This document shows positions 48,486-56,349 of a stretch of DNA of 64,000 bases, in pieces; positions within the stretch are counted from its first letter, which is position 1, and each line of letters begins with the position of its first letter. The position numbers were made by a program, and so were the translations under genes. The notes beneath the pieces are model-generated. The model did no database searches, was not told where the DNA came from, and saw only the letters and a program-made list of their open reading frames with translations. Location: positions 124,001-188,000 of the forward strand of contig NZ_JZUE01000009.1 in NCBI RefSeq assembly GCF_000969605.1, read 5' to 3'. This stretch comes from Aquincola tertiaricarbonis. GTDB taxonomy: Bacteria; Pseudomonadota; Gammaproteobacteria; Burkholderiales; Burkholderiaceae_C.

Positions 48486-48968
48486 TCAGTTCGAGCGGCG
48501 ACGAGCGGCCATGAAGCCGATGGCGCCCAGGCCAGCCAGGAACAGGGCGTACGTTTCGGGTTCCGGAACGGCGGCCACGACCGACTTCAGGGCGTAGGTG
48601 CTGCCCGGGGTGCCGACACCCTTGACCGTGTAGAAATAGTCACCAGCGGCAAGATTTGCCGTAAAGGTGGAGCCAATCGAGCCGCTGGCGATGGAGCCCG
48701 GCGACGTGAAGCTCGACAGTTCGAAGAAACCCGCCGAGAACGACGAGGGCAGCACGGCGGTCAGGCCGGCTTCGATGGTGCTCTCGCCCGTCAGGGTGAA
48801 CGAGAACGTGTCCACGAACGAACCAGCCACGACGGCGAAAGCGTGGTCAGCGCCCGAGGTGATGGAGTCACCGAAGGTGGTGAACACGGTCGTCGAGGCC
48901 GCATTGGCCTGTGCGCAGGCCAGAACGACTGCAGCCAGTACGGCCGATTGCTTGAGAACTTGCTTCAT
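48486..48968 (-). CDS. FxDxF-type PEP-CTERM exported protein
   Basis: 160-residue secreted protein. A signal peptide (MKQVLKQSAVLAAVVLACAQANA) is followed by a small Ser/Thr/Gly-rich beta domain that includes SFVDTFSF (the FxDxF pattern), and the C terminus has VPEPETYALFLAGL plus a hydrophobic stretch and AARRRSN, a complete PEP-CTERM sorting signal. Such proteins are processed by an exosortase, usually in exopolysaccharide-producing cells. No exosortase gene is in the window. A GGAGGAGCC ribosome site precedes the start. Confidence 0.93.
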   Translation of the reverse strand: MKQVLKQSAVLAAVVLACAQANAASTTVFTTFGDSITSGADHAFAVVAGSFVDTFSFTLTGESTIEAGLTAVLPSSFSAGFFELSSFTSPGSIASGSIGSTFTANLAAGDYFYTVKGVGTPGSTYALKSVVAAVPEPETYALFLAGLGAIGFMAARRRSN

Positions 48969-52211: not shown

Positions 52212-53291
52212 ATGCCAGCCCCTCTGCAAAACGACAGCTTCCTGCGCGCCTGCCTGCGCCAGCCCACTGACCACACGCCCATCTGGCTCATGCGCCAGGC
52301 CGGGCGCTACCTGCCGGAGTACAACGCCACCCGCGCGCGTGCAGGCAGCTTCATGGGCCTGGCCACCAGCCCGGCCTATGCCACCGAGGTGACGCTGCAG
52401 CCGCTCGAGCGCTTTCCGCTGGATGCGGCCATCCTGTTCTCCGACATCCTCACGGTGCCCGACGCCATGGGCCTGGGCCTGAGCTTCGCCATCGGCGAAG
52501 GCCCGCGATTCGCCACCCCGGTGCGCGACGAGGCGGCGGTGGACGCGCTGGCCGTGCCCGACATGGACAAGCTGCGCTACGTCTTCGATGCGGTGCGCTC
52601 CATCCGCCAGGCGCTGAACGGGCGGGTGCCGCTGATCGGCTTTTCCGGCAGCCCGTTCACCCTGGCCTGCTACATGGTGGAAGGCGCGGGCAGCGACGAC
52701 TACCGCCGCATCAAGACGATGCTGTACGCCAGGCCCGACCTGCTGCATCGCATCCTGGCCATCAATGCGGAGGCGGTGGCGCAGTACCTCAACGCGCAGA
52801 TCGACGCCGGCGCCCAGGCGGTCATGCTGTTCGACAGCTGGGGTGGCGTGCTGGCCGATGGCGCCTTCCAGGCATTCAGCCTGGCCTACACGGCCCGCGT
52901 CCTGGCGGCGCTGAAGCGCCAGGACGCCGACGGCCAACCCGTGCCGTGCATCGTCTTCACCAAGGGCGGCGGCCAGTGGCTGGAGCAGGTGGCCGCGCTG
53001 GGCCCCGACGTGATCGGCCTCGACTGGACGACCGACCTGGGCGCCGCCCGTGCCCGCGTGGGCGACCGCGTGGCCCTTCAGGGCAACCTCGATCCGATGG
53101 TGCTGTTTGCCGGCGAGCAGGCCGTGCGGGCCGAAGCGCGCAGGGTGCTGGACCGCTTCGGCCCGCCGGCCGGTGGCGGCCATGTATTCAACCTGGGGCA
53201 CGGCATCTCGCAGCACACGCCGCCGGACGCCGTCAGCGCGTTGGTAGATGAAGTGCACCGGCATTCACGCGCCCTGCGGCAGGGCGCGTAA
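52212..53291 (+). CDS. hemE: Uroporphyrinogen decarboxylase
   Basis: 359-residue cytoplasmic enzyme converting uroporphyrinogen III to coproporphyrinogen III in haem and (bacterio)chlorophyll synthesis. Signatures are [16 protein letters not shown] with the substrate-binding arginines, the catalytic Asp in [13 protein letters not shown], and [17 protein letters not shown]. The length matches the family (about 355). It is followed by a 934-bp non-coding region with a three-unit DnaA-box array, then priA. Confidence 0.97.
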
Positions 53292-53313
53292 GCCACCGGC
53301 CGAGCGCTGGAAA

Positions 53314-53521
53314 GCTTGACTTATCCCCAGATCGGCGTTCTCGCATGGCGCCTTTTGCAGATTTCCAGGCCGGCTGCCAGCGCTGGGGGCCTTGTTCTAA
53401 GTGCTTGATTTTCCTGGCGATGCGGCTCTGCCGCTTTTGTGGGCAACCTGTCATGCCTGCCCGGCGAATCAAGCATTTAGCGCGTCTGCCATCAGCTTCT
53501 GCACAAAGATATCCACAGAAA
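53314..53521 (+). repeat. hemE-priA array, unit 1
   Basis: First of three tandem units. Blocks, by offset from the unit start: 0 GCTTGACTTATCCCCA; 83 CTAAGTGCTTGATT; 127 GGGCA; 144 TGCCC; 153 AATCAAGCATTTAG; 187 GCACAAAGATATCCACAGAA. Blocks 83/153 are inverted arms and blocks 127/144 an inner stem with a 12-nt loop. The DnaA-like box here is ATATCCACA (53509-53517), one base off consensus; the weaker TTATCCCCA is at 53321-53329. Sequence between blocks is largely unlike units 2 and 3. Confidence 0.8.
53397..53480 (+). other. Conserved nested hairpin, copy 1
   Basis: Outer 14-bp stem CTAAGTGCTTGATT / AATCAAGCATTTAG (one G-U pair if read as plus-strand RNA), inner stem GGGCA / TGCCC (53441-53445, 53458-53462) with a 12-nt loop, and an extra local hairpin GCGGC-TCT-GCCGC (53422-53434). 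Equivalent structures are at 53704-53786 and 54028-54110. Confidence 0.6.
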
Positions 53522-53703
53522 TTCGGGGCAACTCGGGCAAACCCGGAACGCTTGCCAAGCTAGGGATGCGGCAGGCCGTCGCAAGCGGTGCAACAGCCTT
53601 CCAAAAATATCGCGCAGGGGCTTGACTTATCCCCACTTCCACGAACTGCGCCGATGGCGACCCTGGCGGCGAGTGGATGGTTCCTCACTTCAACTGTCAT
53701 ACG

Positions 53704-53786
53704 CTAAGTCTTTGATTTTTATGATTTCTTTCGTTGCCTCAGGAAGAGGCAGCCTAAGCGGCTTGCCTTGCCAATCAAGGGCTTAG
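53704..53786 (+). other. Conserved nested hairpin, copy 2 (covarying)
   Basis: Outer stem CTAAGTCTTTGATT / AATCAAGGGCTTAG pairs over all 14 positions with two U-G pairs; a G-C pair of copies 1 and 3 is C-G here. The inner stem is AGGCA / TGCCT, so the first pair is A-T instead of G-C. An alternative local hairpin TGCCTC-AGGAA-GAGGCA (53735-53751) competes with the inner stem. Confidence 0.6.
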
Positions 53787-53814
53787 CGCATCTGCCTCCA
53801 GCTTTTGCACAAAG

Positions 53815-53823
53815 TTATCCACA
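53815..53823 (+). promoter_or_regulatory. DnaA box (perfect), unit 2
   Basis: TTATCCACA is an exact match to the DnaA-box consensus TTATNCACA. It lies 188 bp after the TTATCCCCA box at 53627-53635, in the same orientation. Confidence 0.75.
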
Positions 53824-54027
53824 GAAAAACTGGGCAAGTTTTCGATTGACAGAATGCAAACGAGTGCTATTCGGATGGCTGCCTTGCCTTTGGCTCGCGC
53901 TTCGATGACATGCCCAGCGGAGTTGCCAACACCGTGCGAGTCCGCTTGACTTATCCCCAAAAAACGGCTTTGCGCTGGCAGGGGGTCGCGGGTAGGGCCG
54001 GGGGCGGCAGAATGACCCAAAACCGTG

Positions 54028-54110
54028 CTAAGTGCTTGATTTTGTTCGCGCAGGCACATGCTGCAAGCTTGGGCAAACCAACGCTGATGCCCGGCGGATC
54101 AAGCAGTTAG
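54028..54110 (+). other. Conserved nested hairpin, copy 3
   Basis: Outer stem CTAAGTGCTTGATT / GATCAAGCAGTTAG has one U-G pair and one G-G mismatch; inner stem GGGCA / TGCCC at 54071-54075 and 54088-54092 with a 12-nt loop. The single arm at 54180-54193 could replace the mismatched right arm. Confidence 0.58.
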
Positions 54111-54138
54111 CGCGTCTACCTCCAGGTTTTGCACAAAG

Positions 54139-54147
54139 TTATCCACA
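54139..54147 (+). promoter_or_regulatory. DnaA box (perfect), unit 3
   Basis: TTATCCACA, exact consensus, again exactly 188 bp after the TTATCCCCA box at 53951-53959. It lies about 80 bp upstream of the priA start codon, so DnaA binding could also affect priA expression. Confidence 0.75.
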
Positions 54148-54225
54148 GAAAATCTGAGCAAGTTCTGAAAGCCGTTTGCCATCAAGCACTTAGACGTCAT
54201 CCCTCAGGCAGAACCGAGCTTCGGT

Positions 54226-56349
54226 GTGCAAGTTGAGCATGCAGTCACCGTGTCCGTGGCGGTGGAAACGCCGCAGCACAGCGGTTTGGGCATGCCGCTG
54301 GACTACGCCAGCCCGCAACCGCTGCCGCCCGGTACCTTGGTGCGGGTGCCGCTGGGGCGTCGCGACGTGCCAGGCATCGTCTGGCAGCGGCCGCCCCAGG
54401 CCGAGGCGCCGCCCGATTTGCGCCCGGTGCGCGAGGTGGTGTCGGCCCTGCCGCCGCTGGGCGCGCACTGGCGGCAGCTGGTGGCCTTCGCGGCGGCGTA
54501 TTACCAGCGTGGGCTGGGGGAGCTGGCCTTGGCCGTGCTGCCGCCTGAGCTGCGCAAGCTGGACGATGTGCAGCTGGCCCGGCGGGTGTCGCGGCTGCGC
54601 AAGGCGACGGCGCCCGCCGTCGGCCCGGCCGCACCGCGTGTCGTCGAGCGCGCCGCCGCGGGCATCGGTGCCGCGCGGGCTGACGAAGTACCGCCGGCGG
54701 ACCTGCCGCCCAGCCGCCCGCCGCTGAATGACGAGCAGCTGATGGCCGTGCAGGCCATCGGCGCGGCAGCGGGCACCTACCTGCTGCACGGTGTCACCGG
54801 CAGCGGCAAGACCGAGGTGTACCTGCATGCGGCGGAGGCGGCACTGGCGGCCGGCCGCCAGGTGCTGGTCATGGTGCCCGAGATCAATCTCACGCCTCAG
54901 CTCGAGGCCCGCTTTGCGGAGCGCTTCGCCGGCCGGCGGCTGGTGTCGCTGCACAGCGCGCTCACGCCGGCGCAGCGGCTCAAGCACTGGCTGCTGGCGC
55001 ACCTGGGCGAGGCTGACCTGGTGCTCGGCACGCGGCTGGCAGTGTTCGCCTCGCTGCCGCGGCTGGGGCTGATCGTGGCCGACGAGGAACACGACCCCTC
55101 CTTCAAGCAGCAGGAGGGCGCCCGCTACTCGGCGCGCGACCTGGCGGTGTACCGCGGCCATCTGGAAGGCGTGCCGGTGGTGCTGGGCTCGGCCACCCCC
55201 TCGCTGGAAACCTGGCAGCGGGTGCAGGAAGGGCGCTACACCCGGCTGGCGCTGTCGCAGCGCATCGGCGGCGGCGTGCTGCCGCGGGTGCGGCTGTTCG
55301 ACATGAACACGCTGCCCCGCCAGCGCGGTGCCGCTGCGCCGGCCCTGGCGCCGATGATCGTGGACGCGGTGGCCGAACGCATCGAGCGCGGCGAGCAGAG
55401 CCTGCTGTTCCTCAACCGCCGCGGCTATGCCCCGGTGCTGCATTGCACCGCCTGCGGGTGGAAGAGCGGCTGCCCGCATTGCAGCGCCTGGCGCGTGTTC
55501 CACAAGGGCGATCGCAGCCTGCGCTGCCATCACTGCGGCTTCAGCGAGCGCGTGCCGCGCGCCTGCCCCGACTGCGGCAACCTCGACATCGCGCCGCTGG
55601 GCCGCGGCACCGAGCGGCTGGAGGAGCAGATCGCCGAGCTGCTGCCCGGCGCCCGCGTGGCCCGCATCGACGCCGACACCACGCGGCTCAAGGGCTCGCT
55701 GGAAGCGCAGCTGGGCGCGGTGCATGCGGGCGACGTGGACGTGCTGGTGGGCACCCAGATGATTGCCAAAGGCCATGATTTCCGCCGCATTACGCTGGTG
55801 GCCGCGGTGAACCCGGACAGCGCGCTGTTCGCCAGCGACTTCCGCGCGCCGGAGCGCCTCTTCTCGCTGCTGATGCAGGCCGCCGGCCGCGCCGGCCGCG
55901 ATGCCGAGCATGCGGCCCGCAGCGAGATGTGGGTGCAGAGCTGGCATCCGCAGCATGGCCTGTATGCCGCGCTGCGCAAGCACGATTACGAAGCCTTTGC
56001 CGCCACGCAACTGGAGGAACGCCAAGCCGCCGGCCTGCCGCCCTTCAGCAGCCTGGCGCTGCTGCGGGCCGAGGCGCGCGAGGCCAGCATCGCCCAGGCC
56101 TTCCTGCGGGAGGCCGCCGCGCAGGCACAGGCGGCGGCCGACGAGGCCGGCGTGACGATCTATCCGCCAGTGCCGCCGCCGGTGGCGCGGGTGGCCGACG
56201 TGGACCGCATGCAGATGCTGGTGGAGTCGCCCTCCCGGGTGGCGCTGCAGCGGCTGCTGGCCGACTGGCTGCCGCAGCTGCATGGTCTGCGGACCGTGCA
56301 CAAGGGCGTGCTGCGCTGGGCGGTGGACGTCGATCCGCTGGCCATCTGA
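54226..56349 (+). CDS. priA: Primosomal protein N' (replication restart helicase PriA)
   Basis: 707-residue PriA, the DNA helicase that recognises stalled forks and loads DnaB through PriB/DnaT. The start is GTG at 54226. The N-terminal DNA-binding domain (VSVAVETPQHSGLGMPLDY) is followed by Walker A in HGVTGSGKTEVYL, the DEEH box (VADEEHDPSFKQQ) and a zinc-binding insert with paired cysteines (CTACGWKSGCPHC, CHHCGFSERVPRACPDCG). The helicase C-lobe motif QAAGRAGR is intact. Length normal (E. coli 732). It is preceded by the DnaA-box array and followed directly by an inverted-repeat element. Confidence 0.96.
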   Translation: MQVEHAVTVSVAVETPQHSGLGMPLDYASPQPLPPGTLVRVPLGRRDVPGIVWQRPPQAEAPPDLRPVREVVSALPPLGAHWRQLVAFAAAYYQRGLGELALAVLPPELRKLDDVQLARRVSRLRKATAPAVGPAAPRVVERAAAGIGAARADEVPPADLPPSRPPLNDEQLMAVQAIGAAAGTYLLHGVTGSGKTEVYLHAAEAALAAGRQVLVMVPEINLTPQLEARFAERFAGRRLVSLHSALTPAQRLKHWLLAHLGEADLVLGTRLAVFASLPRLGLIVADEEHDPSFKQQEGARYSARDLAVYRGHLEGVPVVLGSATPSLETWQRVQEGRYTRLALSQRIGGGVLPRVRLFDMNTLPRQRGAAAPALAPMIVDAVAERIERGEQSLLFLNRRGYAPVLHCTACGWKSGCPHCSAWRVFHKGDRSLRCHHCGFSERVPRACPDCGNLDIAPLGRGTERLEEQIAELLPGARVARIDADTTRLKGSLEAQLGAVHAGDVDVLVGTQMIAKGHDFRRITLVAAVNPDSALFASDFRAPERLFSLLMQAAGRAGRDAEHAARSEMWVQSWHPQHGLYAALRKHDYEAFAATQLEERQAAGLPPFSSLALLRAEAREASIAQAFLREAAAQAQAAADEAGVTIYPPVPPPVARVADVDRMQMLVESPSRVALQRLLADWLPQLHGLRTVHKGVLRWAVDVDPLAI

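Follow-up and report, generated by a model that had tools for sequence, protein, structure and literature searches.

The window, by which we mean the whole stretch of 64,000 nucleotides that was analysed, carries hemE (52212-53291, plus strand; TIGR01464) and priA (54226-56349, plus strand), separated by a gap of 934 bp (53292-54225) in which three tandem units are found. In all three units a distal DnaA box, TTATCCCCA, is followed exactly 188 bp further on by a second box, which reads TTATCCACA in units 2 and 3 and ATATCCACA in unit 1; the distal boxes start at 53321, 53627 and 53951, and the (A/T)TATCCACA boxes, called core boxes here, at 53509, 53815 and 54139. Three units with a box pair at exactly this distance had been described in an earlier note on this DNA, and both the coordinates and the spacing were confirmed; what that note missed was the identity of the other blocks as IHF sites, a weak box 12 bp before TTATCCACA, and an inverted-box position at +14. 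Of the 12 TTATCCMCA motifs in the 6.3-Mb host genome, 5 are inside the hemE-priA gap.

The IHF consensus is WATCAANNNNTTR, and by consensus match the remaining conserved blocks of the window units are predicted IHF sites, each core box being preceded by a minus-strand site at 110-111 bp and a plus-strand site at 42 bp. A figure legend in PMC8682772 gives the consensus in the form TAAnnnnTTGATW. In unit 1, the distal box (box1; 53321-53329, plus strand), a sequence match to TTATCCCCA, is followed by the predicted IHF sites AATCAAGCACTTA (53398-53410, minus strand, 111 bp before the core box) and AATCAAGCATTTA (53467-53479, plus strand, 42 bp before it), then by a DnaA box at -12 with one mismatch, TTCTGCACA (53497-53505, plus strand), the core box ATATCCACA (53509-53517, plus strand), and a degenerate inverted-box position with 4/9 mismatches (53523-53531, minus strand). 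Unit 2 has the same order: distal box (53627-53635, plus strand), IHF site AATCAAAGACTTA 110 bp before the core box (53705-53717, minus strand), second IHF site AATCAAGGGCTTA (53773-53785, plus strand), a box at -12, TTTTGCACA, which fits TTWTNCACA (53803-53811, plus strand), core box TTATCCACA (53815-53823, plus strand), and an inverted-box position, again with 4/9 mismatches (53829-53837, minus strand). In unit 3 the corresponding features are the distal box (53951-53959, plus strand), the IHF site AATCAAGCACTTA 110 bp before the core box (54029-54041, minus strand), a second IHF site with one mismatch to consensus, GATCAAGCAGTTA (54097-54109, plus strand), the box TTTTGCACA at -12 (54127-54135, plus strand), the core box TTATCCACA (54139-54147, plus strand), and an inverted-box position with 4/9 mismatches (54153-54161, minus strand). 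An extra IHF-like site with one mismatch, CATCAAGCACTTA (54180-54192, plus strand), lies 41 bp on from where the core box of unit 3 starts, close to the +40 place that is common in the named beta loci. Across loci L014-L093 the plus-strand IHF site takes one of two places relative to the core box, 42 bp ahead of it or about 40 bp past it, depending on the locus; the window has the site at 42 bp before, and past unit 3 a one-mismatch copy of the after-core kind.

An RNA element was considered for the gap and rejected, as no Rfam family reached its gathering score there; the inverted repeats that might be read as RNA structure are the IHF sites facing each other, and their variable middle bases are unpaired in unit 2. 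Elsewhere in the window, directly after atpC, a reading frame on the minus strand (48486-48968) encodes what its translation suggests to be a small secreted protein, with a C-terminal tail that we take to be PEP-CTERM-like.

The spacing between these sites was then compared over 185 distinct modules (loci L014-L093, L136-L194 and L198-L257). In 148 of the 185, a minus-strand IHF site with at most one mismatch precedes the core box by 105-114 bp, while in 200 shuffles of the spacers such a site was found at this distance in a mean of 1.4 and a maximum of 5. By set, the site is present in 62 of 63, 30 of 34, 15 of 29, 15 of 22 and 28 of 41 modules. The arm from box1 to this IHF site measures 66-70 bp in 30 modules and 76-88 bp in 118, and arms of 71-75 bp do not occur at all, though the search admitted lengths of about 59-96 bp. 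The arm means are about 68 and 78.5 bp, a difference of one helical turn, and the distal same-direction box stands about 178 or 188-190 bp from the core box. Two arm lengths one helical turn apart argue for a looped complex with a fixed helical face; the 185 modules are related rather than independent sequences, so the two lengths may reflect few events.

The module is not lineage-specific. Among the best 80 loci of a HemE scan, priA adjoins hemE in 71, and 66 of these 71 named Burkholderiales hemE-priA loci have at least one unit that includes the minus-strand IHF site (one unit in 58 loci, two in 6, three in 1 and four in 1); the earlier note had proposed loss of the block spacing in relatives as the test of its reading, and the spacing is kept. 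The scan found no unit with an IHF site in five loci, L054, L057, L061, L083 and L093, the last having a gap of 15 bp. In the other 9 of the 80 loci priA is absent from the examined stretch, once through a contig end; a whole-genome search for the box pair in eight of those nine genomes, and in the genome with the 15-bp gap, gave a match in 7 of 9, all 7 by priA. Exact IHF consensus sites occur 134 times in 71 gaps (the window gap and 70 named loci, the 15-bp gap being excluded), as compared with 1.5 expected from shuffles, with at least one in 63 of the 71; there are 0 in 71 kb of control sequence ending at the hemE stops. The box pair at spans of 182-210, a pattern that misses diverged boxes and of which some pairs may not be modules, was found in 82 of the 150 order genomes and in 88 of the 185 class genomes sampled, and its reversed control at the same spans in none of either sample. 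With a shorter spacing (spans 152-181), 8 of 150 genomes match and the control matches in 2. In the phylum sample, a table count of pattern matches only gives 50 of 249 genomes, to which the class contributes 32 of 67 and the rest of the sample 18 of 182. Since the IHF site is present in only 15 of the 29 order-sample modules away from priA, some of the latter are chance pairs or other clusters of DnaA boxes. Two Limnohabitans genomes (L062 and L066 vs L263 and L264) seem to carry two hemE-like genes, one copy beside priA with the module and the other copy not.

Around the core box, a weak box in the same direction at -12 (at most 3 mismatches) is present in 0.91, 0.76, 0.95, 1.0 and 1.0 of the modules in the five sets. 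An inverted box exactly at +14, again with at most 3 mismatches, is found in 20 of 22 and 38 of 41 gamma modules (58 of 63 together), in 15 of 34 and 17 of 29 order modules (two sets that share three modules), and in 34 of 63 named beta modules; for an inverted box at other offsets the median is 0 and the highest count 10 of 63. The gamma loci fetched, 20 of 43 priA-side and 40 of 80 other modules, were picked before the +14 box was known. In E. coli, the boxes at -12, 0 and +14 have 1, 0 and 1 mismatches in DARS1 and 2, 0 and 3 in DARS2; the assignment of core boxes as DARS box I, II or III is our own. With 4/9 mismatches, the inverted-box position of all three window units falls between that of DARS2 (3) and that of datA box 2 (5). 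Scored against the gamma core consensus, the window units reach 22/31, DARS1 26, datA box 2 21, and DARS2 21 as oriented here and 22 when turned round. This score alone does not decide the type of element, since window units, DARS2 and datA box 2 score alike and only DARS1 stands out.

In published work on DARS, the opposed, head-to-head arrangement of DARS boxes I and II is described as a prominent feature, and shifting the DARS2 IHF sites by 5 bp did more harm than shifting them by 10 bp in one direction, while a 10-bp shift of IBS1-2 the other way was also harmful. The IHF arrangement of DARS2 is not that of the module, whose IHF site lies at 110 bp on the side of the weak box. An IHF pair 3 bp apart in the DARS2 region, which we take to be the documented IBS1-2, is found about 209 bp from the core on the side opposite the weak box. 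The genomic place also differs, bioD-uvrB for DARS1 and mutH for DARS2 as compared with hemE-priA in the window, and none of 89 other loci has a mutH match. The E. coli DARS2 region contains in addition an IHF-like site with one mismatch (L197:5571-5583) 109 bp before the core box, which is the module's distance; it is distinct from the presumed IBS1-2, and we do not take it as proof.

As the main rival to a DARS type we consider an element of the datA type, in which same-direction DnaA boxes around an IHF loop would titrate ATP-DnaA and bring about hydrolysis of its ATP, so that initiation would be lowered after the origin has fired. E. coli datA, read as box(+) -65- IHF(-) -97- box(+), has the module's order and orientation, and 12 bp ahead of its TTATCCACA it carries the weak box TTGTAAACA, with 2 mismatches; according to the literature, the essential datA boxes point one way and the intervals between them matter. 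The module is moreover close to the origin: in the relative Comamonas testosteroni it lies near 336 kb of 4.1 Mb (the host's own genome is in 95 contigs), and the distance from dnaA, computed as circular and by hand arithmetic, is 75-515 kb in 7 of 8 single-contig class genomes in which both could be placed, the eighth (G324) having a candidate match at 666 kb. In the beta genome L190 a module (L190:4003-4199) away from priA has nearby amiB-, tsaE- and queG-like genes, which follow datA in E. coli. Amongst the points against this type are the arms, about 68 or 78.5 and 110 bp in the module vs 65 and 97 bp in datA, and the inverted box at +14, which datA lacks (5/9 mismatches) and 58 of the 63 fetched gamma modules have. 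The glyV-X-Y/queG context of datA is found neither in the window nor in general, with a queG match in only 1 of 89 loci (L190) and tRNA-Gly in 0 of 69 loci scanned. L191, a further locus from the genus of L190, has amiB- and tsaE-like genes. The conservation of the inverted box in gamma modules is what makes us lean to the DARS type; because the core score fails to separate DARS2 from datA, and because of L190, that leaning is a tentative one, and a datA-type element stays a possibility that we regard as doubtful rather than slight.

The position of the module suggests another role, that of a cis-regulatory region in which DnaA and IHF would control the transcription of priA and so tie replication-restart capacity to the level of DnaA. 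Upstream of priA, on the same strand and within 3 kb, are 68 of 97 order-sample and 43 of 123 class-sample modules; where the place of priA is listed, no other module is found within 3 kb of it in another orientation; and all seven modules recovered from the nine genomes whose hemE locus lacked priA or had the 15-bp gap are by priA, as noted above. This orientation may however simply be inherited, and the search did not place 29 of the 97 and 80 of the 123 modules upstream of priA. Contig breaks may hide some of these, and for 1 and 9 of them the place of priA is not listed, which leaves 28 of 97 and 71 of 123 that have a listed priA but stand outside the 3 kb upstream of it. Neighbours elsewhere include rpmE, parE, fabF, thrB, rapA, hslO and uup, and further ubiE/earP and flgL; an rpmE-like gene is present in 15 of the 60 gamma loci fetched, and in 14 the module lies upstream of it on the same strand. 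In addition, the fixed 190-bp geometry and the tandem copies exceed what a promoter needs, and we consider a priA-regulating role rather unlikely. In seven gamma loci (L210, L221, L226, L236, L239, L248 and L254) the module is about 96-191 bp upstream of rpmE, measured to approximate starts, and several of the gamma genomes with a module at rpmE have a second one upstream of priA.

A true or accessory replication origin, as the earlier note had also considered, is very improbable. DnaA boxes and IHF sites are present, and the origin of Caulobacter is flanked by hemE. In the complete chromosome of Comamonas testosteroni (G001), however, dnaA begins at base 40, and it is near this gene, not at the module, that the sampled GC skew switches sign, from -0.059 at 1-20 kb to +0.067 at 20-40 kb, after which it is positive in every sample to 2.22 Mb, well past the module. 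The GC skew of the window is noisy and has no clear switch. In this relative, the module locus is thus disfavoured as the origin.

The three tandem copies in the window might also be taken for a plain recent duplication or a functionless dispersed repeat, which is scarcely credible, as the units are only 56-59% alike and yet exact in their motif spacing, this spacing is kept across families, and the spacing statistics over the 185 modules strongly disfavour a repeat without function. The window units resemble each other about as much as they do units of other genera (0.54-0.59), and the view of the earlier note that geometry was selected, rather than a segment recently duplicated, is upheld. 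Between L078 and L085, the first units have an identity of 0.86 and the second units one of 0.74, as compared with 0.47 for neighbouring units, and this likeness of counterparts implies that tandem copies are old in some lineages, with the spacing kept while the filler diverges. In the hemE-priA gap of L087 there are four units, of which 1 and 3 (0.76) and 2 and 4 (0.77) pair as if a block of two had been duplicated. Scattered identical copies, which the note had named as a finding that would speak against it, do not occur in the host's own genome, where BLAST of the gap gave no other full copy and a best other match of 38 bp (E 7.7e-4). A dispersed repeat was also rejected on reading the remaining TTATCCMCA sites of the host genome, which yielded a single diverged partial copy (G000:C2:30553). 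This partial module (L266:3054, minus strand) consists of a three-box core with an exact minus-strand IHF site at -108 and is devoid of a distal box; its neighbours are xseA on one side and, on the other, a gene that weakly matches tolQ.

How chromosomal sites control the nucleotide state of DnaA has been worked out in detail in E. coli. Based on the fixed place of the IHF site, the two arm lengths, the box at -12, the inverted box at +14 and the DARS-like spacing of the core, we suggest, tentatively, that a DARS-type nucleoprotein module of DnaA and IHF is present in three tandem copies in the hemE-priA gap. A datA-like locus that titrates DnaA had been put forward in the earlier note, and the sites, their spacing and their conservation support a DnaA-regulatory element of the datA/DARS class. 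The host's own DnaA (L011) is 52% identical to that of E. coli and keeps the residues D269, R281, R285, L290 and R334 and the DHTTV motif, which we count in favour of the DARS-type reading; its R227 is H, which we count against it, together with the box(+)-IHF(-)-box(+) layout and origin-near place that resemble datA, the 4/9 mismatches of the inverted box in every window unit, and an IHF side unlike that of DARS2. In the DARS-type reading, DnaA would occupy the three-box core made up of the weak box, TTATCCACA and the inverted partner, while IHF bound 110 bp upstream would bend the DNA sharply, so that DnaA at the distal box, 188 bp off, would be brought up to the core on the same helical face. 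The DnaA oligomer formed in this way could then alter the nucleotide state of DnaA, most likely by release of ADP and reactivation of the protein, as E. coli DARS does, and this change would help to time initiation at a distant oriC. As the layout recurs in many relatives and resembles the DnaA-regulating sites of E. coli, the locus probably helps to time chromosome replication.

We further speculate, with considerable doubt, that the module represents an ancient beta- and gamma-proteobacterial DnaA nucleotide switch that combined a DARS core with a datA-like box-IHF-box loop in fixed helical phase, that it was the source of the separate DARS and datA sites of E. coli, and that many lineages kept it by priA, several having it also by rpmE, and that it was multiplied in tandem in the window. 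Fujimitsu 2009 is presumably the work to which PMC10380432 refers for DARS-like sequences in many proteobacteria, and an earlier mention of such sites in that work is possible. Both DARS-like sequences in many proteobacteria and the occurrence of IHF in proteobacteria are referred to in PMC10380432. No account of a DnaA-IHF module at priA was found in the titles and abstract starts of open-licence literature, among the matches listed; the papers cited for the E. coli systems and for IHF are PMC4948915, PMC4585315, PMC12371093, PMC10950094, PMC5742627, PMC10380432, PMC4245941 and PMC8682772. If our reading is true, the measurable geometry of the module and the presence of its box pair in 88 of 185 class genomes would make replication timing directly testable in other bacteria, and control of the DnaA nucleotide would be tied to the restart gene priA.

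When compared with known systems, the module shares with oriC its DnaA boxes and IHF site, whereas the GC-skew switch of the complete relative lies near dnaA. It resembles datA in having same-direction DnaA boxes on either side of a single minus-strand IHF site, a weak box at -12 and a place close to oriC, and differs from it in arm lengths, in the inverted box at +14 and in its neighbours at nearly all loci. Unlike DARS, the module has its IHF site on the weak-box side at 110 bp and a distal box in the same direction, lies upstream of priA, and occurs in tandem copies, with an inverted box that is degenerate in the window. Like DARS1 and DARS2, it has core boxes at -12 and 0, joined in most gamma modules by a clear inverted box at +14, and is noncoding and located beside DNA-metabolism genes (uvrB and mutH in the case of DARS); DARS2 also uses IHF, and does so in a position-sensitive manner.
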